Below are positions 25,060 through 40,186 of a stretch of DNA of 64,000 nucleotides, piece by piece. The translations under genes were made by a program, and so were the position numbers. The stretch comes from Bacteroidaceae bacterium (GTDB taxonomy: Bacteria; Bacteroidota; Bacteroidia; Bacteroidales; Bacteroidaceae), in the NCBI GenBank assembly GCA_017642425.1, contig JAGCPB010000064.1:25357-89356 (forward strand), written 5' to 3'. Under the pieces are notes generated by a model, which did no database searches, was not told the DNA's origin, and worked only from the letters and a program-made list of their open reading frames with translations. Within the stretch, counting starts at the first letter, position 1; each line of letters starts with the position of its first letter.

Positions 25060-25887
25060 TCAATCTTCTTCGGCAGCAGCCTTACGGGTGCGACGCTTGG
25101 GAGCCTCAACGTGCTTGACTTCCTCCTTTACACCTGCCAGCTCTGGATCAATCATGATACGTCCGCAGTACTCGCAAACTATGATTTTCTTGCGCATGCG
25201 GATATCAAGCTGACGCTGTGGCGGAATCTTGTTAAAGCAACCGCCGCATGACTCACGCTGTACATAAACGATACCCAGACCGTTGCGGGTGTTGTTGCGG
25301 ATACGCTTGAATGACTGCAGCAGACGGGGCTCGATATTCATTTCAAGAGCCTTGCATCTGTCACGCAATCTCTCCTCTTCCTGTCGGTTTTCCTCAATAA
25401 TCTCATGCAGCTCTGACTTCTTGACCTCAAGGTCCTGCTGTTTCTCAGCAACGATAGCCCTGTTTGTCTCAATCTCCTCCTTCTTGGTGCTGATAGCGTT
25501 TGTGAACTCACGGATACGCTTATCGGCCAGCTCAATCTCCAGGTTCTTGAACTCAATCTCCTTGTTCAGTGAATCAAACTCACGGTTGTTGCTTACGTGG
25601 TCCTGCTGCTCCTGATACTTGGCAATGGCAGCTTTTGAAACCTCAATTGTGTTCTTGTTCTCTGCAACGCCCTTGCTCATCTCGACTACATCGGCACTGG
25701 CCTTCTCGATACGTGTGGTCAGACCGGCAATCTCATCCTCAAGGTCCTGAACCTCAAGAGGCAGTTCGCCGCGCAGTGTCTTGATCTTGTCAATCTCGGT
25801 CAGCATGGTCTGCAGCTGATACAGTGACTGGAGTTTCTCCTCAACAGAGTACTCGCTCGGGTCTTTCTTTACTTCTTTTGTTGCCAT
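25060..25887 (-). CDS. C4-type zinc-ribbon, coiled-coil protein (DUF164-like)
   Basis: The 275-residue protein is mostly a long antiparallel coiled coil (about residues 15-185, rich in Glu, Lys and Leu). After it comes a zinc ribbon with two Cys pairs, CGGCFNKIP and CEYCGRIM. A Lys/Arg tail KRRTRKAAA closes it. Such proteins are thought to bind nucleic acid or act in translation-related processes, but no specific function is assigned here. It starts 2 nt after nif3-like stop and is clearly co-transcribed with it. Confidence 0.8.
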   Translation of the reverse strand: MATKEVKKDPSEYSVEEKLQSLYQLQTMLTEIDKIKTLRGELPLEVQDLEDEIAGLTTRIEKASADVVEMSKGVAENKNTIEVSKAAIAKYQEQQDHVSNNREFDSLNKEIEFKNLEIELADKRIREFTNAISTKKEEIETNRAIVAEKQQDLEVKKSELHEIIEENRQEEERLRDRCKALEMNIEPRLLQSFKRIRNNTRNGLGIVYVQRESCGGCFNKIPPQRQLDIRMRKKIIVCEYCGRIMIDPELAGVKEEVKHVEAPKRRTRKAAAEED

Positions 25888-28433: not shown

Positions 28434-29630
28434 TTAAATCAAGCCAAGGATAACTTTGTAGGAGTGAACCTCATCGGGATCACCCAGCTCCTTGCCCGGG
28501 GTGTCGGACAGTTTTACGCAGCGGTAGACGTGCTGGCGGGGGTTGACCTGGAAGGTCTTGAGTTTCATTACGATGTTTAACGGATCTACAGTGCCTACAT
28601 CGTTAGTGAGGTTTGTGCCGATGCCGAACGATACCTTTATCCTACCCTCAAAGTACTTCTGGATGGCCAGGGCACGGTCAAAGTCAAGGGCGTCACTGAA
28701 CACTATTGACTTGGTCATGGGGTCTATGTGGTATGACTCGTATTTGGCTATGATCTTGTCGCCGAACTCAAACGGATCGCCGCTGTCGTGACGTACGCCG
28801 TCATATAGTTTGGCCATATCGAGCGAGAAATTGCGAAGGAACACGCGCGTTGTAAAGCAGTCAGGCAGCATCGTACCCATGTTTCCGCCGAATATCTGAG
28901 CCCAGTTGCGCATAACGTAATAGTTAGCCTCCTTGGGTCCCATGAATGCGGCAGTTGCCATCATAAGCTCGTGAGCCATAGTGCCGATAGGCTTCAGGTC
29001 CGGACGGATTGACTGGTATTTCATTGCGAAATATACGGTCGATGAGCCGATGAAATACTTGGCGTGGCGTGTCAGATACTCGGTTACATGATCCTCAACC
29101 TCACGTGAGTAGCGGCGGCGCATACCAAAGTTTGCAAACTTGAGCTTGTTCTCGTTTGATATTGCAACCTTCTTCTCCAGATGGCTGTCTATGTATGCCC
29201 AGTCCGGCTCGGTTTTCTCATATATCTTGTAATATACCTCCGATACCGTACTCAGAATGGGGATTTCATACAGTGTGACCTTGTAGATAAGGTCTTTTGC
29301 CTCAATGTGCAGGTGGCCCTCCTCATCAAGCGATATGTCGATTATATCGGCATTGAACCTGAAGCCTTTGAGCCACTCAAAATAGCACTGAGGTATGAAA
29401 TAGATATTGGAGAGGCACCATTTGAACTCCTCATCGGTCAGGGCCAGTGTCTCCAGTTTCTTGAACTCCTTACGTAAGAGATTCACAAACTCCGGCGTGA
29501 ACTTCATGCCGTTGCGGTCATTGAAACTGAATGTGCCTATACCATCGGGAGTAGTCCGCTGGTAATAGTATGACATGGAGAATTTATAGAGGTCATTCTC
29601 CAACACACTCTTTACTATAGTGCTCTCCAT
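28434..29630 (-). CDS. pncB: Nicotinate phosphoribosyltransferase
   Basis: The 398-residue enzyme makes nicotinate mononucleotide from nicotinate and PRPP with ATP. SVLENDLYKFSMSYYY at the N-terminus, FGMRRRYSREVED, SSTVYFAMKYQ, GTMAHELMMA, YDGVRHDSGDPFEFGD (phosphorylated His) and SFGIGTNLTNDVG are family hallmarks. It starts 7 nt after the nicotinamidase gene, so the two form a deamidating NAD salvage operon (nicotinamide to nicotinate to NaMN). Confidence 0.97.
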   Translation of the reverse strand: MESTIVKSVLENDLYKFSMSYYYQRTTPDGIGTFSFNDRNGMKFTPEFVNLLRKEFKKLETLALTDEEFKWCLSNIYFIPQCYFEWLKGFRFNADIIDISLDEEGHLHIEAKDLIYKVTLYEIPILSTVSEVYYKIYEKTEPDWAYIDSHLEKKVAISNENKLKFANFGMRRRYSREVEDHVTEYLTRHAKYFIGSSTVYFAMKYQSIRPDLKPIGTMAHELMMATAAFMGPKEANYYVMRNWAQIFGGNMGTMLPDCFTTRVFLRNFSLDMAKLYDGVRHDSGDPFEFGDKIIAKYESYHIDPMTKSIVFSDALDFDRALAIQKYFEGRIKVSFGIGTNLTNDVGTVDPLNIVMKLKTFQVNPRQHVYRCVKLSDTPGKELGDPDEVHSYKVILGLI

Positions 29631-29637
29631 AAAATCC

Positions 29638-30276
29638 TTATTTATAAATCTTTATCTTATTCTCGTTCATGTAGGTAACCAGAGGCTCGTTGCTCTCGAT
29701 GGATGCTACGCCCTCCAGGTAGACTGAGAGTTCAAAACCTACCTCCTTGCTAAGACGAACCAGGTTCTTGAGTGTCTCCAGGACGCAGTACTCGGCAGCT
29801 ATACCGCATACAACAACCTTGTCACCCTTTACAAACAGGTCCTGGTCATTACCCTTGGTGTTCTCAAACTGACCGTACTCCTCCTTATCCTGAGCCTGGC
29901 CCTTGGGCAGGAAACGTACGTTATTGATATCCAGATTGTCCAGAATACCGTCAGGCAGAGCTGCGCCAACAGTGTAGCGTACGCAGTGCTGAGGCCAGAT
30001 ACCGCCGTTTGCCTTGAATGAGCAGTGGTTCCATGGATGCCAGTCAAGGGTAAAATATACCTTGTCAAACTTGGTAAGGACGCTCTTTACAGGCTCCACA
30101 ACGCGTGTGCCGTCGGTAGCAGGCAGGTTTCCGTCAATGAAATCCTTCTGAAGGTCAACCACTACCATAATGTTTGCGGGTTCACGGTTTGTCATAACTG
30201 TCTGTTTTTTGTTTCCTGTGCAAGCCACCACAGCCAAGAATGCGACAGCAGCGGCAAAAATCCTGATTGCTTTCAT
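29638..30276 (-). CDS. pncA: Nicotinamidase-like isochorismatase-fold hydrolase, predicted lipoprotein
   Basis: The 212-residue protein matches nicotinamidase PncA. VVVDLQKDFIDGNLP holds the catalytic Asp, TLDWHPWNHCSF the metal-binding residues, and CGIAAEYCVLETLKNL the nucleophilic Cys. It has an N-terminal MKAIRIFAAAVAFLAVVAC with a lipobox, so it should be exported and lipid-anchored, which is unusual for this enzyme. The start is MKAIRIF at 30276; the longer reading begins with TTG inside the promoter. Coupling with pncB supports nicotinamide as the substrate. Confidence 0.87.
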   Translation of the reverse strand: MKAIRIFAAAVAFLAVVACTGNKKQTVMTNREPANIMVVVDLQKDFIDGNLPATDGTRVVEPVKSVLTKFDKVYFTLDWHPWNHCSFKANGGIWPQHCVRYTVGAALPDGILDNLDINNVRFLPKGQAQDKEEYGQFENTKGNDQDLFVKGDKVVVCGIAAEYCVLETLKNLVRLSKEVGFELSVYLEGVASIESNEPLVTYMNENKIKIYK

Positions 30277-30300
30277 TACAACAATTGTTATTTGAATGTG

Positions 30301-30308
30301 CAAATTTA
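30301..30308 (-). promoter_or_regulatory. -7 box TAAATTTG of the pncA-pncB operon
   Basis: TAAATTTG followed by CACAT on the minus strand lies 24 nt upstream of the pncA ATG at 30276. Confidence 0.55.
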
Positions 30309-33578: not shown

Positions 33579-34493
33579 ATGACACTTACAGGAATCCTGT
33601 TTCTCATCATTGCGACCATCCTGACCGCAATGTTCTCTATCGTATTCAAGATATTTCACCGTAAGGATATCGACGCCAACCAGGCAATATTCTTCAATTA
33701 CCTGACCGCATTCGTACTTGGAGTGCTGTTCTCACTGAATGGTGAAGCGGTTGTAAACCCATTGAAAGCCGATTGGCTGGTTGACGTAATAATACTGGGA
33801 TTCATATTCATGGCCGGAATGGTCATGCTGTCGGCCTCCACCCGCCGCGTAGGTGTGGCCATATCGACCGTATGCAGCCGCGCATCGATGGTAATCCCTA
33901 TCATAGTATCATATCTGCTGATTGAGGGCAGTGCAAAACCCAAATGGCTGCTTATCTGCCTTGTACTGGTGGCTATGACCCTTACCATCTGGACCGATAA
34001 GCCCCAGGGCGGACACAAATACACTCTGCTGGATATTCTGGCACCTGTCACAGTGTTCCTTATGTTCGGCGCCAGCAACGCATACCTTAAGGTTCTGCAG
34101 CACCGTGTGACCGTAAACGACACCGCAGCCGGACTATCGGAGCAGGTAATCAACAGCGAGATATCACTTGTAACCGCATCCGTGTTCTTTGTGGCAATGC
34201 TTATGTGCATATACTCGTTCTTCAAGAAGGGAGAGGACGGCAAGCGCTCCCCTCTGCTTCTTAAGAACGTATTAGGAGGTGTAGTTCTTGGTTTTGTGAA
34301 CTATTTCTGCACCTACACCCTGATGCTCTCAATGAAGACCATAGACTCATCGTTCCTATTCCCGGTCCACAACATCGGAATCGTGGCAATAGGAGCAATC
34401 GTAGGCTGGCTGGCCTTCAATGAAAAACTAAGACCGCACCAAGTACTCGGTATCGTACTTGCTGCGGTCTCAATAGCCCTACTCTGTATTTAA
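33579..34493 (+). CDS. DMT/EamA-family membrane transporter
   Basis: The 304-residue protein has about ten hydrophobic segments in two related halves, as in the drug/metabolite transporter superfamily. The first half contains AIFFNYLTAFVLGVLFSL and ISTVCSRASMVIPIIVSYLL. The second has VLGGVVLGFVNYFCTYTLML and a final VLGIVLAAVSIALLCI. It lies 12 bp after the M3 peptidase and is probably co-transcribed with it. Its substrate is unknown. Some DMT proteins carry riboflavin, but here the riboswitch-controlled gene is on the other strand, so no link is claimed. Its last 4 bp overlap the TonB receptor gene. Confidence 0.82.
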   Translation: MTLTGILFLIIATILTAMFSIVFKIFHRKDIDANQAIFFNYLTAFVLGVLFSLNGEAVVNPLKADWLVDVIILGFIFMAGMVMLSASTRRVGVAISTVCSRASMVIPIIVSYLLIEGSAKPKWLLICLVLVAMTLTIWTDKPQGGHKYTLLDILAPVTVFLMFGASNAYLKVLQHRVTVNDTAAGLSEQVINSEISLVTASVFFVAMLMCIYSFFKKGEDGKRSPLLLKNVLGGVVLGFVNYFCTYTLMLSMKTIDSSFLFPVHNIGIVAIGAIVGWLAFNEKLRPHQVLGIVLAAVSIALLCI

Positions 34494-37400
34494 TCGAATA
34501 TCAGTTTTACGCCCAGCTGGAGGTACCAGCAGTTGGAGTTGGATTTATCCATATCGAAGGTCTTGGAAACAAGGCCTTCTTTGTTTGTTGCCATTGTGAA
34601 TTGCGGATAACCGTCGGCATCAGTGCCCTTGTACTCAAGCAGTTTGGCGTTGTTGCAGGCTGCGGGAGTCTGCATGACACCCCATTTGCTGTTAATCATA
34701 TTGCCTACATTCATGATATCCAGTGACAGCTGCAGAGTCTCGTTGTTACGTTTGGAGCCTCTCAGGGCGCCTACATTGAAGTTTTGTGCCAGATGCAAGT
34801 CAAAACGGTTCAGCCACGGCATACGTGCAGCGTTTGCATCGGCATACTCACCCTTGTGACGGCTAAGGTACTTGTCCTGGTTTACAAAGTCCCAAAATGC
34901 CTGCTGCTGCTCTGCGGCGGTGATTGTTCCGTTGTCCACAAACCTGACCTCTTCCTTGGCGGCAGGTATGTACAACAGGTCATTTGAGATACCGTCACCA
35001 TTCATATCATTTGTATGGGTGTAACTGTAGGTACCTGCAGTGTAACCTGTGTAGAACACTCCAACCTCAGTACTCATGAACTTTTTGCTTGCATAACCAA
35101 TGCGGTATGTAGCCATAGCCGACAGTTTATCCGGTATGACATAGGCCGATGGGCGCAGAACCACCTCGTTGGGACTGTTTACATTGGGGGTATTGCCCCA
35201 CGCGGAGTTCAGAGCCGAACCTTTCATATCCTGAACGGACATTGAGGCTTGATGTATGTACGAAATTTCCGTCTTGAGTCCGTATACAGGCTCAGCCTTG
35301 AGAGTACCGCCCAGAGACCAGCTGTAACCCTTATCGGTATTGCTTATAACCATAGCGCCACCCGACTTTGATACTGTTGAATAAACCGGAGCTACGGTGT
35401 TGTAATTCACTCTGTTATCGGCTCCGCTGAAACGTCCTGCGGCACCGTCATGAACCTGATTGTAGTTCTCAATATAGACGGCGTTGATATCCTTGTTATA
35501 GATACCCTCAACCGATATTGCCAGCGGGAATGCCAGGTCATCGGGCTCATAGTCTATGGCCAGGGATGTCTTGAATACCTGCGGGAGCTTGAAATCACTC
35601 CTGATGCCGGTTATTGATGCGCCCTTTAACACCGGATTGGGGTTGGCTGTCATAGGCAGACCCTGCTGAACAAGATAGTTCCTCAAATCGGCCTCGGTAT
35701 AGAGGAAATTGCCCTGCAGACCCGTCAGGAAGGCATCACCTGCCGTGGGGAACATCACGGTGTTCTGCAGCATACCGCTGCTGTTGGGTATTGTGGCAAA
35801 GAAAACCAGAGGGATACGGCCCGTAAACAGACCTGCACCACCGTGAACCGTCAGCGTGCGGGCATCGTCCACATCCCAATTGAATCCTATGCGCGGCGAT
35901 AACTGCACGTTTGCCTTGGGCCACTTGCCGTTGTCAATAACGGGAGACTTATAGCCTGCAGGAGCCTGTCCTGCTGCATAGAAGTGATTTGTCCAGTCAA
36001 GAGCCTTGAATGACTCATTGGTCTGGAGGGGCTCATAATACTGCATATGGTCTGCCCTGAGTCCGTATGTAACAGTAAACTTGTCTGTTATATGTGACTC
36101 AGCCTGCAGGAAAGCGGCGGTCTGACCAAATGATGTACGTGATGCAGGATCATCAATCCCGTCATAGGTGTAAGTCATTCCGAATGCCGCAGGAGCAGCC
36201 TGATTGATAAAATCCTCGAGTGAGTTGTATCGGTAGTAACCCGTTCCGTACATGCGGTAGTTGGTGGCACCCTTCTGGTACTGATAGCTCAGACCGGCCG
36301 TAATGGTGCTGTGAGCCAGTGTCCAGCGTATATGGTCACTGAAACTGTATGTACGCACGTAGTTTCCGGTACCGTTTGAGAATGCCTCATAACCTGCGCT
36401 CATAAACGCGTCACCGTCCTTGCGGATATCGATATGCGGGAACCACTCCGAATCGGATCCACGCAGATTGCTTACGTCCGATACGCTGGCCGACAGCTTA
36501 TTGCTCATCTTGCCGCTCAGACGGCTGTTGAGTTCGGCCACGGCTGACCATGCGTTATCATTGATACTGAAGCAGTTATTAAGGAATGCATATGAATTCT
36601 TTGATATACGTTCCGATGCGGCCTTGGCGCCAACTGTACTCTTGGCATTGGGAGTGCTCCACTGCTTGTTTCCGGTCCAGTTGTAACGCAGCATCAGGTT
36701 GTGGTTGTTGTTGATGTTCCAGTCAATACGTGCCAGCACCTTGGTGTTTGTCTGATCACCTTTGGTAAGGTCATAACCGCCTGCATCATAACCATATGTC
36801 TTAAGTGCAGTTGCAAACTGTTCCATATCGGCTGTGGTAACACGACTTATCTTGGCGGCATCATCACCAATTCCATCCTGGGACAGCTTATACTCGGTAA
36901 TCGGGCCTGGAGTGGTAACATACTCAGCATTAACAAAATAGAACAGCTTGTCCTTAAGTATCGGACCACCCAGAGTGAATCCAACCGTAGTATGGCTGTT
37001 GCTTACCCTATCGCCCAGATCCACGCCGTCAATACGGTTACCGCGCATCTTCTCATTATGGTAATAGGTGTATGCAGTACCTTTCAGCGTGTTTGTACCC
37101 GACTTGGTTATTACATTGATGCCACCGCCGGTAAAGTTGCTCTGACGTACATCGTAAGGCGCAATTGCCACCTGCATCTCATCGACCGCATCAATAGAAA
37201 TAGGTGTTCCGCCGCCGGGCAGATCGGCCGAAAGACCAAAACTGTTGTTCAGAACGGCACCGTCGATTGTGAGTGTGGTTCCGCGTCCGTCACGACCAGC
37301 CATAGTGTTCTCAATGCCGCTGTAAGGCGATAAACGAGTGTAATCCAGCATGCTACGGTTTACTGACGGCAGCATGGACATGCTCTCCCTGTCAATATGG

Positions 37401-37855
37401 TAGGTCTGACCGGTACGGGTCTCGTTGAAATGTGTGCTCTCACCGCGTATGGTCACGGTCGGGATATTCTTGGTCTCCTCCTTAAGGACGACATTGAAAT
37501 TGTAATCCTTACCCATAGAGAGCACCACGTTGTCATAAGCCACATCCTGATAACCCAGGAACGATACCGTCACCAGATACTTGCCGGGCTTGAGTCCCGA
37601 CAGGGAAAAGATGCCGTACTTATTGGCAACCGCGCCATAGAATGCGCCGGTCTCATTGTTGGTAACTACCACTGCAGCAGCCTGGAGAGGCTCACCGTCG
37701 GAATCTTTCACGGATCCGCTAATGGATGCGGTAGTGTTCTGTGCCGATGCACCAACGCTGGCAAACAACAACACGAACAGGCATGCAAACCTGATGAGTC
37801 TGAATGACAAACTGTCGGCAATAGCCGAAAAACTGAACTCGGATGTCTTGTTCAT
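34490..37855 (-). CDS. Oar-like TonB-dependent receptor under FMN riboswitch control
   Basis: This is an outer-membrane receptor of about 1121 residues. A signal peptide (LIRFACLFVLLFASVGASAQ) is followed by a CarboxypepD_reg domain (ISGSVKDSDGEPLQAAAVVV). Next is an Oar-type plug (RDGRGTTLTIDGAVLNNSF, VDEMQVAIAPYDVRQSNFTG, GGINVITKSGTN) and a long beta-barrel ending in an aromatic-rich strand WYLQLGVKLIFD. I choose the ATG at 37855. Two earlier in-frame ATGs are at 37918 and 37933; the second is inside the riboswitch helix P1. Control by an FMN riboswitch suggests uptake of riboflavin or a flavin compound across the outer membrane, which is inference. There is no adjacent SusD gene. Confidence 0.85.
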   Translation of the reverse strand: MNKTSEFSFSAIADSLSFRLIRFACLFVLLFASVGASAQNTTASISGSVKDSDGEPLQAAAVVVTNNETGAFYGAVANKYGIFSLSGLKPGKYLVTVSFLGYQDVAYDNVVLSMGKDYNFNVVLKEETKNIPTVTIRGESTHFNETRTGQTYHIDRESMSMLPSVNRSMLDYTRLSPYSGIENTMAGRDGRGTTLTIDGAVLNNSFGLSADLPGGGTPISIDAVDEMQVAIAPYDVRQSNFTGGGINVITKSGTNTLKGTAYTYYHNEKMRGNRIDGVDLGDRVSNSHTTVGFTLGGPILKDKLFYFVNAEYVTTPGPITEYKLSQDGIGDDAAKISRVTTADMEQFATALKTYGYDAGGYDLTKGDQTNTKVLARIDWNINNNHNLMLRYNWTGNKQWSTPNAKSTVGAKAASERISKNSYAFLNNCFSINDNAWSAVAELNSRLSGKMSNKLSASVSDVSNLRGSDSEWFPHIDIRKDGDAFMSAGYEAFSNGTGNYVRTYSFSDHIRWTLAHSTITAGLSYQYQKGATNYRMYGTGYYRYNSLEDFINQAAPAAFGMTYTYDGIDDPASRTSFGQTAAFLQAESHITDKFTVTYGLRADHMQYYEPLQTNESFKALDWTNHFYAAGQAPAGYKSPVIDNGKWPKANVQLSPRIGFNWDVDDARTLTVHGGAGLFTGRIPLVFFATIPNSSGMLQNTVMFPTAGDAFLTGLQGNFLYTEADLRNYLVQQGLPMTANPNPVLKGASITGIRSDFKLPQVFKTSLAIDYEPDDLAFPLAISVEGIYNKDINAVYIENYNQVHDGAAGRFSGADNRVNYNTVAPVYSTVSKSGGAMVISNTDKGYSWSLGGTLKAEPVYGLKTEISYIHQASMSVQDMKGSALNSAWGNTPNVNSPNEVVLRPSAYVIPDKLSAMATYRIGYASKKFMSTEVGVFYTGYTAGTYSYTHTNDMNGDGISNDLLYIPAAKEEVRFVDNGTITAAEQQQAFWDFVNQDKYLSRHKGEYADANAARMPWLNRFDLHLAQNFNVGALRGSKRNNETLQLSLDIMNVGNMINSKWGVMQTPAACNNAKLLEYKGTDADGYPQFTMATNKEGLVSKTFDMDKSNSNCWYLQLGVKLIFD

Positions 37856-37921
37856 GCCCTTGGCACAAACAAGTTTTGCAGGCGCGATAACGCCTGACAG
37901 GACTGTTTTGATACTCATAAA

Positions 37922-38027
37922 TTCTTCTTCCATCCAGACTATACTGTCGGTACCGTAGTTGCAACGGTTCGGCCTTTCGGCTCGCGGACTTTACCGCCGG
38001 TCGGGGAATTTCGCCCCACCCTGAAGT
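37922..38027 (-). promoter_or_regulatory. FMN riboswitch (RFN element)
   Basis: The minus strand shows the conserved RFN core. CTTCAGGG begins P1, and GGGGCGAAATTCCCC is P2. GACCGGCGGTAAAGTCCGC (P3), GCCGAAAGGC (P4), CCGTTGCAACTACGG (P5) and CCGACAGTATAGTCTGGATG (P6 and return strand) follow. GAAGAAG closes P1. All six helices can be drawn. It lies directly upstream of the TonB receptor. The family binds FMN and lowers expression when FMN is abundant. The expression platform is uncertain: a hairpin CAGGCG / CGCCTG follows at 37896-37879 but lacks a strong U run. Confidence 0.93.
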
Positions 38028-38037
38028 TTTACGCCTG

Positions 38038-38045
38038 CAAATTTC
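38038..38045 (-). promoter_or_regulatory. Possible -7 box GAAATTTG for the riboswitch transcript
   Basis: GAAATTTG on the minus strand, with TTGG about 20 nt upstream, would start RNA just before riboswitch helix P1. An alternative TACCTTTT is at 38090-38083. Confidence 0.35.
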
Positions 38046-38187
38046 CGCTTTCTACCCCATTCCACCAAGCATTTTCTGCTAAAAAAGGTAAAGTTTATGA
38101 TAAATGGTAAGGCCGGTTTCCTCCAACGGGATACCGGAATGCCACGCTCACATAGGCTCCTTTCTGCAGAAGGTTTTATTTTGCACG

Positions 38188-38430
38188 GAGCCGGACTATA
38201 CCTTTGGGGACCATCAGTGCAGCGACGTAAGCGTAGCCCCCTGGAGGATCCCGTTAAGAACGCCGCTTGTTCGAGGAACGTTAGGCCCCGAAGGGGACTA
38301 TGAGGACGAGTTCGGCGTTTAGGGTCCGTAAGGGAGGCGGAGTAGTCGCGGAACGTTGCGTCCCCAAAGGTATAGTCTGGTGTAGTGTAAAAGAAAACCG
38401 CTCCTCAATAACGAGAAGCGGCTTTTTCTT
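38188..38430 (+). ncRNA. Candidate rod-shaped structured RNA (6S-like architecture)
   Basis: No protein gene is convincing here, yet the plus strand folds into one long rod. GACTATACCTTTGGGGAC (38194-38211) pairs perfectly with 38360-38377, extended by three pairs including a G-U. Inside lie GCGAC/GTCGC (38222, 38345), GCCCCCT/AGGGAGGC (38236, 38331), GGATCCC/GGGTCC (38246, 38322), AACGCCG/CGGCGTT (38259, 38313), CTTGTTC/GGACGAG with two U-G pairs (38266, 38304), and CCCC GAA GGGG at the tip (38286-38296). The G-U pairs fit only the plus strand. TTATTTTGCAC at 38176-38186 resembles a -7 box that would start RNA at about 38190, and a terminator follows at 38398. A paired-ends rod with a middle bubble recalls 6S RNA. 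An intergenic palindromic repeat is the main alternative. Confidence 0.45.
38398..38429. terminator. Bidirectional terminator (aspS and the candidate RNA)
   Basis: CCGCTCCTC (38398-38406) pairs with GAGAAGCGG (38413-38421) with one C-A mismatch. The plus strand continues CTTTTTCTT and the minus strand TTTTCTTTT, so it can stop both the candidate RNA and the aspS transcript. Confidence 0.7.
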
Positions 38431-40186
38431 ATGCTTTCAAGTCAACCTTAAGTTGAAGCTCATCAAGCTGTGACTGGTCAAGAGGACCCGGAGCATCCAG
38501 CATGACATCGCGGCCTGAGTTGTTCTTGGGGAACGCTATGCAGTCACGGATGCTGTCCAGCTTGGCAAAGATGCTGACAAAGCGGTCCAGACCGAATGCC
38601 AGACCACCGTGAGGAGGAGCACCGAACTTGAATGCGTTCATCAGGAAGCCGAACTTGGCCTGAGCCTGCTCTGGAGTAAAGCCCAGGATCCTGAATATGG
38701 TAGCCTGCAGCTTGCTGTCGTGGATACGGATAGAACCGCCACCAACTTCAATACCGTTGATTACCATATCATATGCATTGGCGCGAACGCTTGCCGGATC
38801 AGTGTCAAGCAAAGGAACATCCTCAGGCTTGGGGCTGGTGAACGGATGATGCATAGCCATGAGGCGGTTCTCCTCATCACTCCATTCGTACATCGGGAAG
38901 TCAATCACCCACAGGCACTTGAACTGGTTCTTGTCGCGCAGACCAAGCTCATCGGCCACCTTAAGACGCAGTTCAGAGAGTTGCTTGCGAGTCTTCATAG
39001 CATCATCACCGCTAAGGATAAGGATAAGGTCACCGGCCTCAGCATTCATGGCAGCCTTAAGCTGCTGCAGAACCTCCTGGCTGTAGAACTTATCGACCGA
39101 TGACTTGACGCTGCCGTCAGCCTCAACGCGGGCATAAACCATACCCTTGGCACCAATCTGAGGACGCTTTACATACTCAGTTAGAGCGTCAATCTGCTTG
39201 CGGGTATAAGTAGCGGCACCCTTTGCGCAGATACCGCCTATGTAAGCGGCACCGTCAAACACGCCGAATCCGTAGCCCTTGAGAACATCCATAAGTTCCA
39301 CAAAGTGCATATCAAAACGCAGGTCCGGTTTGTCGCTGCCATAGTATTTCATAGCATCCTGCCAGGTCATACGCTGGAAAGGATCCTTCATCTCAATGCC
39401 AAGGATGCTCTTGAACAGATGCTTGGCCATAGCCTCAAATATCTGCAGGATATCTTCCTGCTCCACAAATGACATCTCGCAGTCAATCTGTGTGAACTCA
39501 GGCTGACGGTCGGCACGCAGGTCCTCGTCACGGAAGCACTTGGCTATCTGGAAGTAACGGTCAAAACCTGATACCATAAGCAGCTGCTTGAGTATTTGGG
39601 GGCTCTGAGGCAGAGCGTAGAACTGACCGGGATTCATGCGTGAAGGAACCACAAAGTCACGTGCGCCCTCGGGAGTTGAATTGATAAGGATCGGTGTCTC
39701 AACCTCCATGAAGCCCAGGTCATCCAGGAACTTGCGTATCTCCATGACCATCTTGTGGCGCAGTTCCAGGTTTTTGCGTACGCACTGGCGGCGCAGGTCA
39801 AGATAGCGGTATTTCATACGCAGGTCATCACCGCCGTCGGTATCGTCCTCGATTGTAAAGGGAGGCGTATCGGCCGCATTGATGACATTAAGTGTGCTTA
39901 CCAATATTTCAATATCACCTGTGGGAATCTTGGAGTTCTTGCTGGAACGCTCGCTCACCTTACCGGTAATCTGAATCACGAATTCGCGTCCCAGACGACT
40001 TGCCTGCTCGCAAAGGGCGGCATCGGTTGCATCGTCAAACACAAGCTGGGTAATACCGTAGCGGTCACGCAGGTCAACAAAGACCATACCACCCATTTTA
40101 CGTACTCTCTGCACCCATCCGGCCAGCGTGACTACGGTGCCGGCATCGGTCAGGCGTAACTCTCCACAAGTTCTTGTTCTGAACAT
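38429..40186 (-). CDS. aspS: Aspartate--tRNA ligase
   Basis: The 585-residue class II synthetase charges tRNA-Asp. The N-terminal OB anticodon-binding domain starts [11 protein letters not shown]. The catalytic core shows RYLDLRR (motif 1 region), [51 protein letters not shown] in shorter conserved blocks, and the motif 3 [10 protein letters not shown]. The bacterial GAD insert lies between. The length is typical of bacterial AspS. It has its own promoter (TAAATTTG at 40219-40212) and is monocistronic. Confidence 0.97.

Follow-up and report, generated by a model that had tools for sequence, protein, structure and literature searches.

FMN riboswitches ahead of two unrelated outer-membrane receptor classes in Bacteroidales predicted to need external riboflavin

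Why should a flavin mononucleotide (FMN) riboswitch stand directly ahead of the gene for an outer-membrane receptor? The question is raised by a stretch of 64,000 nucleotides (the window) from a Bacteroidaceae bacterium, positions 25,357 to 89,356 of contig JAGCPB010000064.1 in assembly GCA_017642425.1, where the aptamer of such a riboswitch runs up to the start codon of an Oar-like receptor gene. FMN riboswitches precede the riboflavin transporters RibU, RibM, RibN, ImpX, RibXY, RibZ and RibV, several of which were found through such linkage (PMC4418817), and the window shares with these systems the aptamer family and an adjoining, here putative, uptake gene. The transporters behind known FMN riboswitches are, however, inner-membrane or solute-binding components, whereas that of the window is an outer-membrane receptor. 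The explanation put forward here, to which we give a probability of about three in four, is that the window comes from a riboflavin auxotroph and holds a gene for vitamin scavenging, which encodes a flavin importer that would be shut off by FMN. It also seems probable, if a little less so, that FMN riboswitches control the outer-membrane receptors through which flavins enter Bacteroidales that have lost riboflavin synthesis, and that two unrelated receptor classes of one ruminant-gut genus have repeatedly changed places behind one riboswitch, with regulatory RNA that reaches into the coding sequence and an incoming Oar-like gene that keeps the first codons of the old gene as a structural RNA leader.

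Riboswitch-linked receptors and riboflavin genes

In an Rfam scan of the whole window, the covariance model RF00050 scored 100.4 bits on the reverse strand (gathering score 66.2, E 4.1e-22). The alignment covers the full model (1-138 of 138), and its two non-standard pairs both lie in the outer part of P1. The riboswitch proposed earlier in a sequence-only reading is thus present, although that reading had run it to 38045, which is 13 bases too far, the element ending at 38032. Its claim that the riboswitch directly precedes an Oar-like outer-membrane receptor also held, the final base of the aptamer match being the A of the likely start ATG. A second in-frame ATG lies within the aptamer at 37933, and the open reading frame counted from there (34490-37933, reverse strand) thus overlaps the riboswitch. 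The same gene order is found in 21 of the 26 riboswitch loci of the genus, window counted (in G145 the contig holds the first codons alone), and is therefore neither an accident of assembly nor a chance match. It is the single FMN riboswitch found in the window's genome, G000 (2.62 Mb in 114 contigs, 87% complete). The protein matches the Pfam models CarboxypepD_reg at its N-terminus (72.1 bits) and the large barrel OMP_b-brl_4 (150.3 bits), the domain make-up of known Oar-like receptors. The TonB_dep_Rec barrel PF00593 reaches 28.8 bits against a cut-off of 27, and the label TonB-dependent, which rests on this weak similarity and on class membership, is applied here only tentatively.

Within the genus, RibH was found in none of 37 genomes by a search that recovered it in 14 of 14 control genomes, and RibF was found in 36 of the 37. 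RibH is required for riboflavin synthesis, and RibF makes FMN and flavin adenine dinucleotide from riboflavin; because the one is missing throughout and the other is retained, the genus is predicted to need external riboflavin. Incompleteness of the genomes weakens single absences but not the 37 RibH absences taken jointly. Public contigs with an Oar-like gene 85-95% identical to that of the window are titled uncultured Bacteroidales, Bacteroidaceae or Prevotellaceae, and the hosts named are water buffalo, sheep or reindeer (four titles, three genomes); others are RUG isolates, which we take to be rumen genomes.

The riboswitch itself was found in 26 of the 37 genomes, in 21 ahead of an Oar-like gene and in five ahead of a gene for a smaller receptor of about 750 residues that carries a Plug domain. 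At E 1e-20 the Oar-like receptor is present in 31 genomes, the small receptor in five (its gene being interrupted in the assembly of G149), both in none, and neither in one (G144, 86% complete); the small-receptor query gave nothing in the window's genome at that threshold. The chance of zero overlap is about 1.4e-5 if genomes are treated as independent, which, being related, they are not.

How far this pattern extends was surveyed in 393 Bacteroidales genomes, with an RF00050 match in 84, above cut-off in 83. The window's genome and G412 (cut by a contig end) were excluded, G434 was kept with a cut match below cut-off, and six carriers from a draw of genomes of the same family were added, so that the set from outside the genus comprised 89 loci in 88 genomes. 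Each locus was classed by its best match to seeds of confirmed family (RibD, RibE, RibB, RibBA, RibH, small receptors and Oar, the seed Oar379 being assigned by its match to the window protein). On this basis 47 riboswitches precede riboflavin-synthesis genes, 41 precede small receptors and one, in G297, precedes an Oar-like N-terminus of 168 residues truncated by the contig end. RibH was looked for in 80 of these genomes, the other eight being of the synthesis type; it was present in 38 of 38 synthesis-type and in 0 of 41 receptor-type genomes, with one further genome, G364, holding both locus types and RibH. The relatedness of the genomes makes p-values for this association misleading, but the genera g2, g38, g105 and g146 each contain both locus types, and type tracks RibH every time. 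An outer-membrane route for flavins, as the sequence-only reading had predicted, is thereby supported, although the commoner riboswitch-linked receptor belongs to a different and smaller family than the one on which that prediction was based. In the draw of 121 family genomes, the small receptor at an identity of at least 57% occurs in six of 22 RibH-negative and none of 99 RibH-positive genomes.

Two of the surveyed genomes show unusual arrangements. In G364 (L134) one FMN riboswitch lies before ribD and another before a small receptor with an interrupted frame, followed by an 858-residue relative. In G054 (L012, L168) the riboswitch lies between a ribE-like gene and ribBA-ribH, not at the head of the run, and an Oar-like gene is found a few kb downstream on the opposite strand.

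Two unrelated receptors at one site

The small receptors share with that of the window the riboswitch, the locus within the genus and the RibH-minus background. Proteins aligned from 32 of their 46 loci, genus included, form one family of about 750-900 residues, whose members outside family f1 are 31-46% identical to that of G119, and all 32 have the Plug domain. They give no BLASTP match to the Oar-like proteins at E 0.001 beyond the leader region.

The two classes occupy one and the same site. When G024, which carries a small receptor, is compared with the window, the flanks are 82-93% identical in DNA on both sides (one 32-base piece 97%), and the similarity runs through the riboswitch to 37899, after which there is none until 34477, where the match to the neighbouring EamA gene begins. 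In trees of the flanking genes, for which 35 genus genomes were supplied, the small-receptor rows do not group together as one clade: no fewer than three receptor changes are required by well-supported branches of the EamA tree, where four of 22 rows have the small receptor, and no fewer than two by those of the aspS tree, where two of 18 do. The number of exchanges is provisional, and the flanking genes may themselves have moved. The Oar-like proteins of the genus form one clade with support 100.

An account in which the genus lost the first gene of an ancestral operon of small receptor and Oar-like gene was rejected as the main one: the Oar-like proteins of G379, G170, G416 and G482 are only 30-32% identical to the window's and lie on a long separate branch, and the two classes alternate at one site. 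In those genomes the Oar-like gene lies on the same strand downstream of a riboswitch-linked small receptor, by some 290-680 nt in G379, G170 and G416 and by about 1.1 kb in G482 (L159-L162).

The replaced gene appears to have left its beginning behind. The frames of G104 (Oar-like) and G024 (small) share a 46-residue match that runs from the aptamer into the leader, and the first 24 residues of the small receptors (5/5, hydropathy maxima 2.2-2.56) contain a signal peptide's hydrophobic core. The corresponding maximum in the window is 1.70, and these residues are less hydrophobic (0.23-1.73) in 20 of 21 Oar-like genes of the genus. A second hydrophobic stretch, with maxima of 2.5-3.3, follows in 19 of 20 scorable proteins, G137 being the exception in both counts, and probably acts as the working signal peptide.

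RNA structure and surrounding features

Two hairpins, H1 and H2, fall within the first 75 nt of the gene. Over 24 of the 26 genus loci (G125 and G145 left out) 90.7% of their cells are paired, and 13 of the 19 pairs are changed on both sides; no shuffled control in 500 reaches 13 such pairs (mean 6.6), and slid structures pair 29-47% with 6-11 of them. G137 is misaligned at H1 and H2 and carries a different hairpin. In 25 riboswitch loci the 60 nt from ATG+15 fold with a mean of -24.9 kcal/mol, against means of -7.9 to -18.8 in the following windows, and the same region folds weakly (-8.0 to -12.6 kcal/mol) in all seven genus orthologues that have no riboswitch. As RNA structure is kept while the peptide changes, the coding hairpins point to selection on them as RNA. 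A palindrome in DNA was considered and rejected, because G-U pairs make up 75 of about 410 paired cells when read on the mRNA strand, a frequency that fits RNA better. An intrinsic terminator at H2 was rejected too, as no T run stands right behind its stem, nor behind that of H1 (the window's T run lies 14 nt beyond H2). The single terminator-like site found in the window, at 37778-37793, is within chance expectation.

Of the 89 loci outside the genus, 49 show, by a rough pattern, a terminator-like hairpin with a T run behind the aptamer; unlike at these terminator-type loci, the start codon in the genus touches or almost touches the aptamer. In family f9 (G275, G452, G372) it also adjoins the aptamer, and folding there does not clearly exceed that of the rest of the gene. 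When P1 is forced, the mean predicted pairing of bases -12 to -1 rises across the 26 genus loci, partly by construction. Forming P1 changes the predicted energy little, and in either direction; among the five structures printed no conserved anti-P1 helix is seen, and the folds with P1 blocked vary between species.

These features suggest a translational OFF switch. At low cellular FMN, P1, the closing helix of the aptamer, would open and give the ribosome access to the adjoining start codon, and the receptor then made would carry riboflavin, or some other flavin, in through the outer membrane. At high FMN, the bound ligand would keep P1 closed over the bases beside the start codon, and closed P1 together with the two intragenic hairpins would leave insufficient free RNA for initiation.

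The positions of these features and of the neighbouring genes are collected in Table 1. A gene similar to the EamA permease is found in 24 of 35 genus loci searched, some loci being too short to show one. The permease is possibly an inner-membrane partner of the receptor, but EamA is a broad family and the adjacency may be plain synteny with genes for salvage of nicotinamide adenine dinucleotide (NAD). By eye, from the beginnings of open reading frames, no EamA gene adjoins the receptor-type riboswitches in genera g2 and g7, and the synthesis-type genome G054 has a different EamA gene close to its operon. Past the EamA gene lie a peptidase M3 gene and then the NAD-salvage genes, an isochorismatase-domain gene and a nicotinate phosphoribosyltransferase gene (28434-30303), with similar genes seen by eye in several genus loci; these surroundings are possibly a vitamin-salvage neighbourhood. 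The inverted-repeat element lies in the gap that separates aspS from the riboswitch. The motif at its two ends is found nowhere else in the window and has no exact copy in the fetched loci of other genomes (L001-L186), and the element is probably unrelated to the riboswitch-receptor unit.

Table 1. Features at and around the receptor locus (window coordinates)
Feature	Position	Strand	Basis
EamA-family permease, convergent with the receptor gene	33579..34493	+	PF00892, 53.7 bits, two stretches
Oar-like outer-membrane receptor, 1142 residues, proposed flavin importer	34490..37918	-	Open reading frame; CarboxypepD_reg + OMP_b-brl_4; 31/37 genus genomes
Second hydrophobic stretch, probable working signal peptide LIRFACLFVLLFASVGASAQ	37739..37798	-	Hydropathy maximum 2.79
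Leader, about 40 codons, ahead of the receptor's own hydrophobic stretch	37799..37918	-	Beginning similar to the small receptor's signal peptide region
Hairpin H2, coding region, 12 pairs	37847..37873	-	86.3% of cells paired; 9/12 pairs changed on both sides
Hairpin H1, coding region, 7 pairs	37879..37896	-	98.2% of cells paired; 4/7 pairs changed on both sides
Likely start codon ATG	37916..37918	-	Sequence; its A is the final aptamer base
FMN riboswitch aptamer (RFN element)	37918..38032	-	RF00050, 100.4 bits, full model
Inverted-repeat-flanked element, 228 bp	38172..38399	.	55-nt arms, 75% complementary
aspS-like class II tRNA synthetase with GAD domain	38429..40186	-	PF00152, 412.6 bits, and PF02938; upstream flank common to both receptor types

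Weighing the explanations

Several observations count against a flavin importer under FMN control. The Plug model PF07715 has no match in the window protein at E 0.001. Seven Oar-like genes of the genus with visible upstream DNA have no riboswitch, five of them lying within about 60 nt behind aspS and those of G050 and G088 elsewhere; the element was thus lost or never gained in some, which speaks against a strict need for it, although orthologues are far from consistently without it (21 of 31 have it, and three, G121, G128 and G136, are cut by a contig end). Folding of the coding hairpins is not outstanding in G119, G137 and G124, where it is matched by 18, 3 and 1 later windows. The window's genome yielded no inner-membrane riboflavin transporter, though no search aimed at one was made, and passage of riboflavin through porins is conceivable in principle. 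Eleven RibH-negative family genomes, mostly incomplete, fall outside both the genus and the small-receptor carriers. Outside the genus, Oar homologues of at least 500 bits occur in five of 15 RibH-negative and 14 of 99 RibH-positive genomes (p 0.13), and the relatives in RibH-positive genomes, at about 36-48% identity, have no FMN riboswitch ahead of them.

The last point sets the bounds of the ligand claim. The sequence-only reading had hoped to assign a ligand type to an Oar-like receptor; because riboswitch-less relatives occur in RibH-positive genomes, this may be proposed for the clade of this genus only, and the idea that the Oar-like class as a whole is a riboflavin class was rejected at the family level. 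The narrower proposal would rest on the riboswitch, the auxotrophy and the exchange with the small receptor. Among 79 public-genome loci a simple pattern finds FMN aptamer motifs in 11, all with Oar-like proteins 85-95% identical to the window's, which by this identity would be members of the genus. In another genus, g30, an Oar-like homologue (about 39-43% identity) is present in RibH-negative G030, G089 and G120 and gave no match at E 1e-20 in RibH-positive G053, G072 and G105, a contrast of three genomes with three only; no FMN riboswitch was found there.

The same relatives in RibH-positive genomes, the seven orthologues that manage without a riboswitch and the resemblance between the leaders of the two classes would all be expected if an Oar-like gene had simply entered the locus of a former small receptor and inherited its control region, the substrate being another and FMN control accidental. 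We consider this unlikely, since the aptamer has been kept even before Oar-like genes as little as about 54% identical to that of the window, with H1 and H2 kept in most (G137 departing), and since the small receptor is never retained elsewhere in Oar-gene genomes, which would leave its job undone in an auxotroph; the riboswitch-less orthologues, moreover, occur in RibH-negative genomes too, none with a small receptor. Less probable still is uptake of some other nutrient tied to flavin status, such as iron, haem or a flavin-bound protein or peptide, with FMN as its proxy. Oar-like proteins have indeed been tied to large substrates, Oar of Myxococcus being needed for PopC secretion (PMC6434023), but the correspondence between receptor-type riboswitches and RibH absence is exact in the genomes checked, and the exchange is with a receptor family whose larger kin obey the same RibH rule. 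That riboswitch and receptor are separate, the receptor being driven by its own downstream promoter or together with aspS, might be read from the five riboswitch-less genes close behind aspS, yet the window aptamer ends on the start codon and a scan that recognises sigma-70-type sites found no promoter-like site on the gene's strand between 37700 and 38450, so that we regard this as very improbable.

An FMN-controlled flavin importer in an auxotroph, the explanation we favour, combines two known components, FMN riboswitch and Oar-like receptor, in a new way. The nearest parallel is the cobalamin riboswitch of btuB, likewise a vitamin-cofactor riboswitch on an outer-membrane receptor, which differs in aptamer and ligand; the receptor family of btuB is also a different one. 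Control in that case is of translation initiation in E. coli (PMC11162775). Gutierrez-Preciado et al. described 842 FMN riboswitches in 1133 genomes, and the main text of that paper contains none of the terms 'TonB', 'outer membrane' and 'Bacteroid' (PMC4418817); Sun et al. reported FMN regulons in every group studied save Bacteroidaceae, Mycobacteriaceae and Cyanobacteria (PMC3766115). The available parts of three further papers tie no receptor to an FMN element (PMC6041382, PMC5756330, PMC12405394), and a survey of gut vitamin needs lists, in its available part, riboflavin transporters but no outer-membrane one (PMC6593275). No outer-membrane riboflavin receptor was found in the accessible portions of the open-licence literature, which leaves its absence from print unproved. 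The work on Oar that was available concerns protein secretion or signalling. To our knowledge no flavin link has been drawn for Oar-like receptors.

The pattern would give a ligand to two receptor classes, and would make the gene behind the riboswitch a predictor of riboflavin auxotrophy in Bacteroidales. The replacement of unrelated receptors by one another would amount to a natural experiment, and the locus would offer a testable case of riboswitch control with conserved RNA structure inside the open reading frame.

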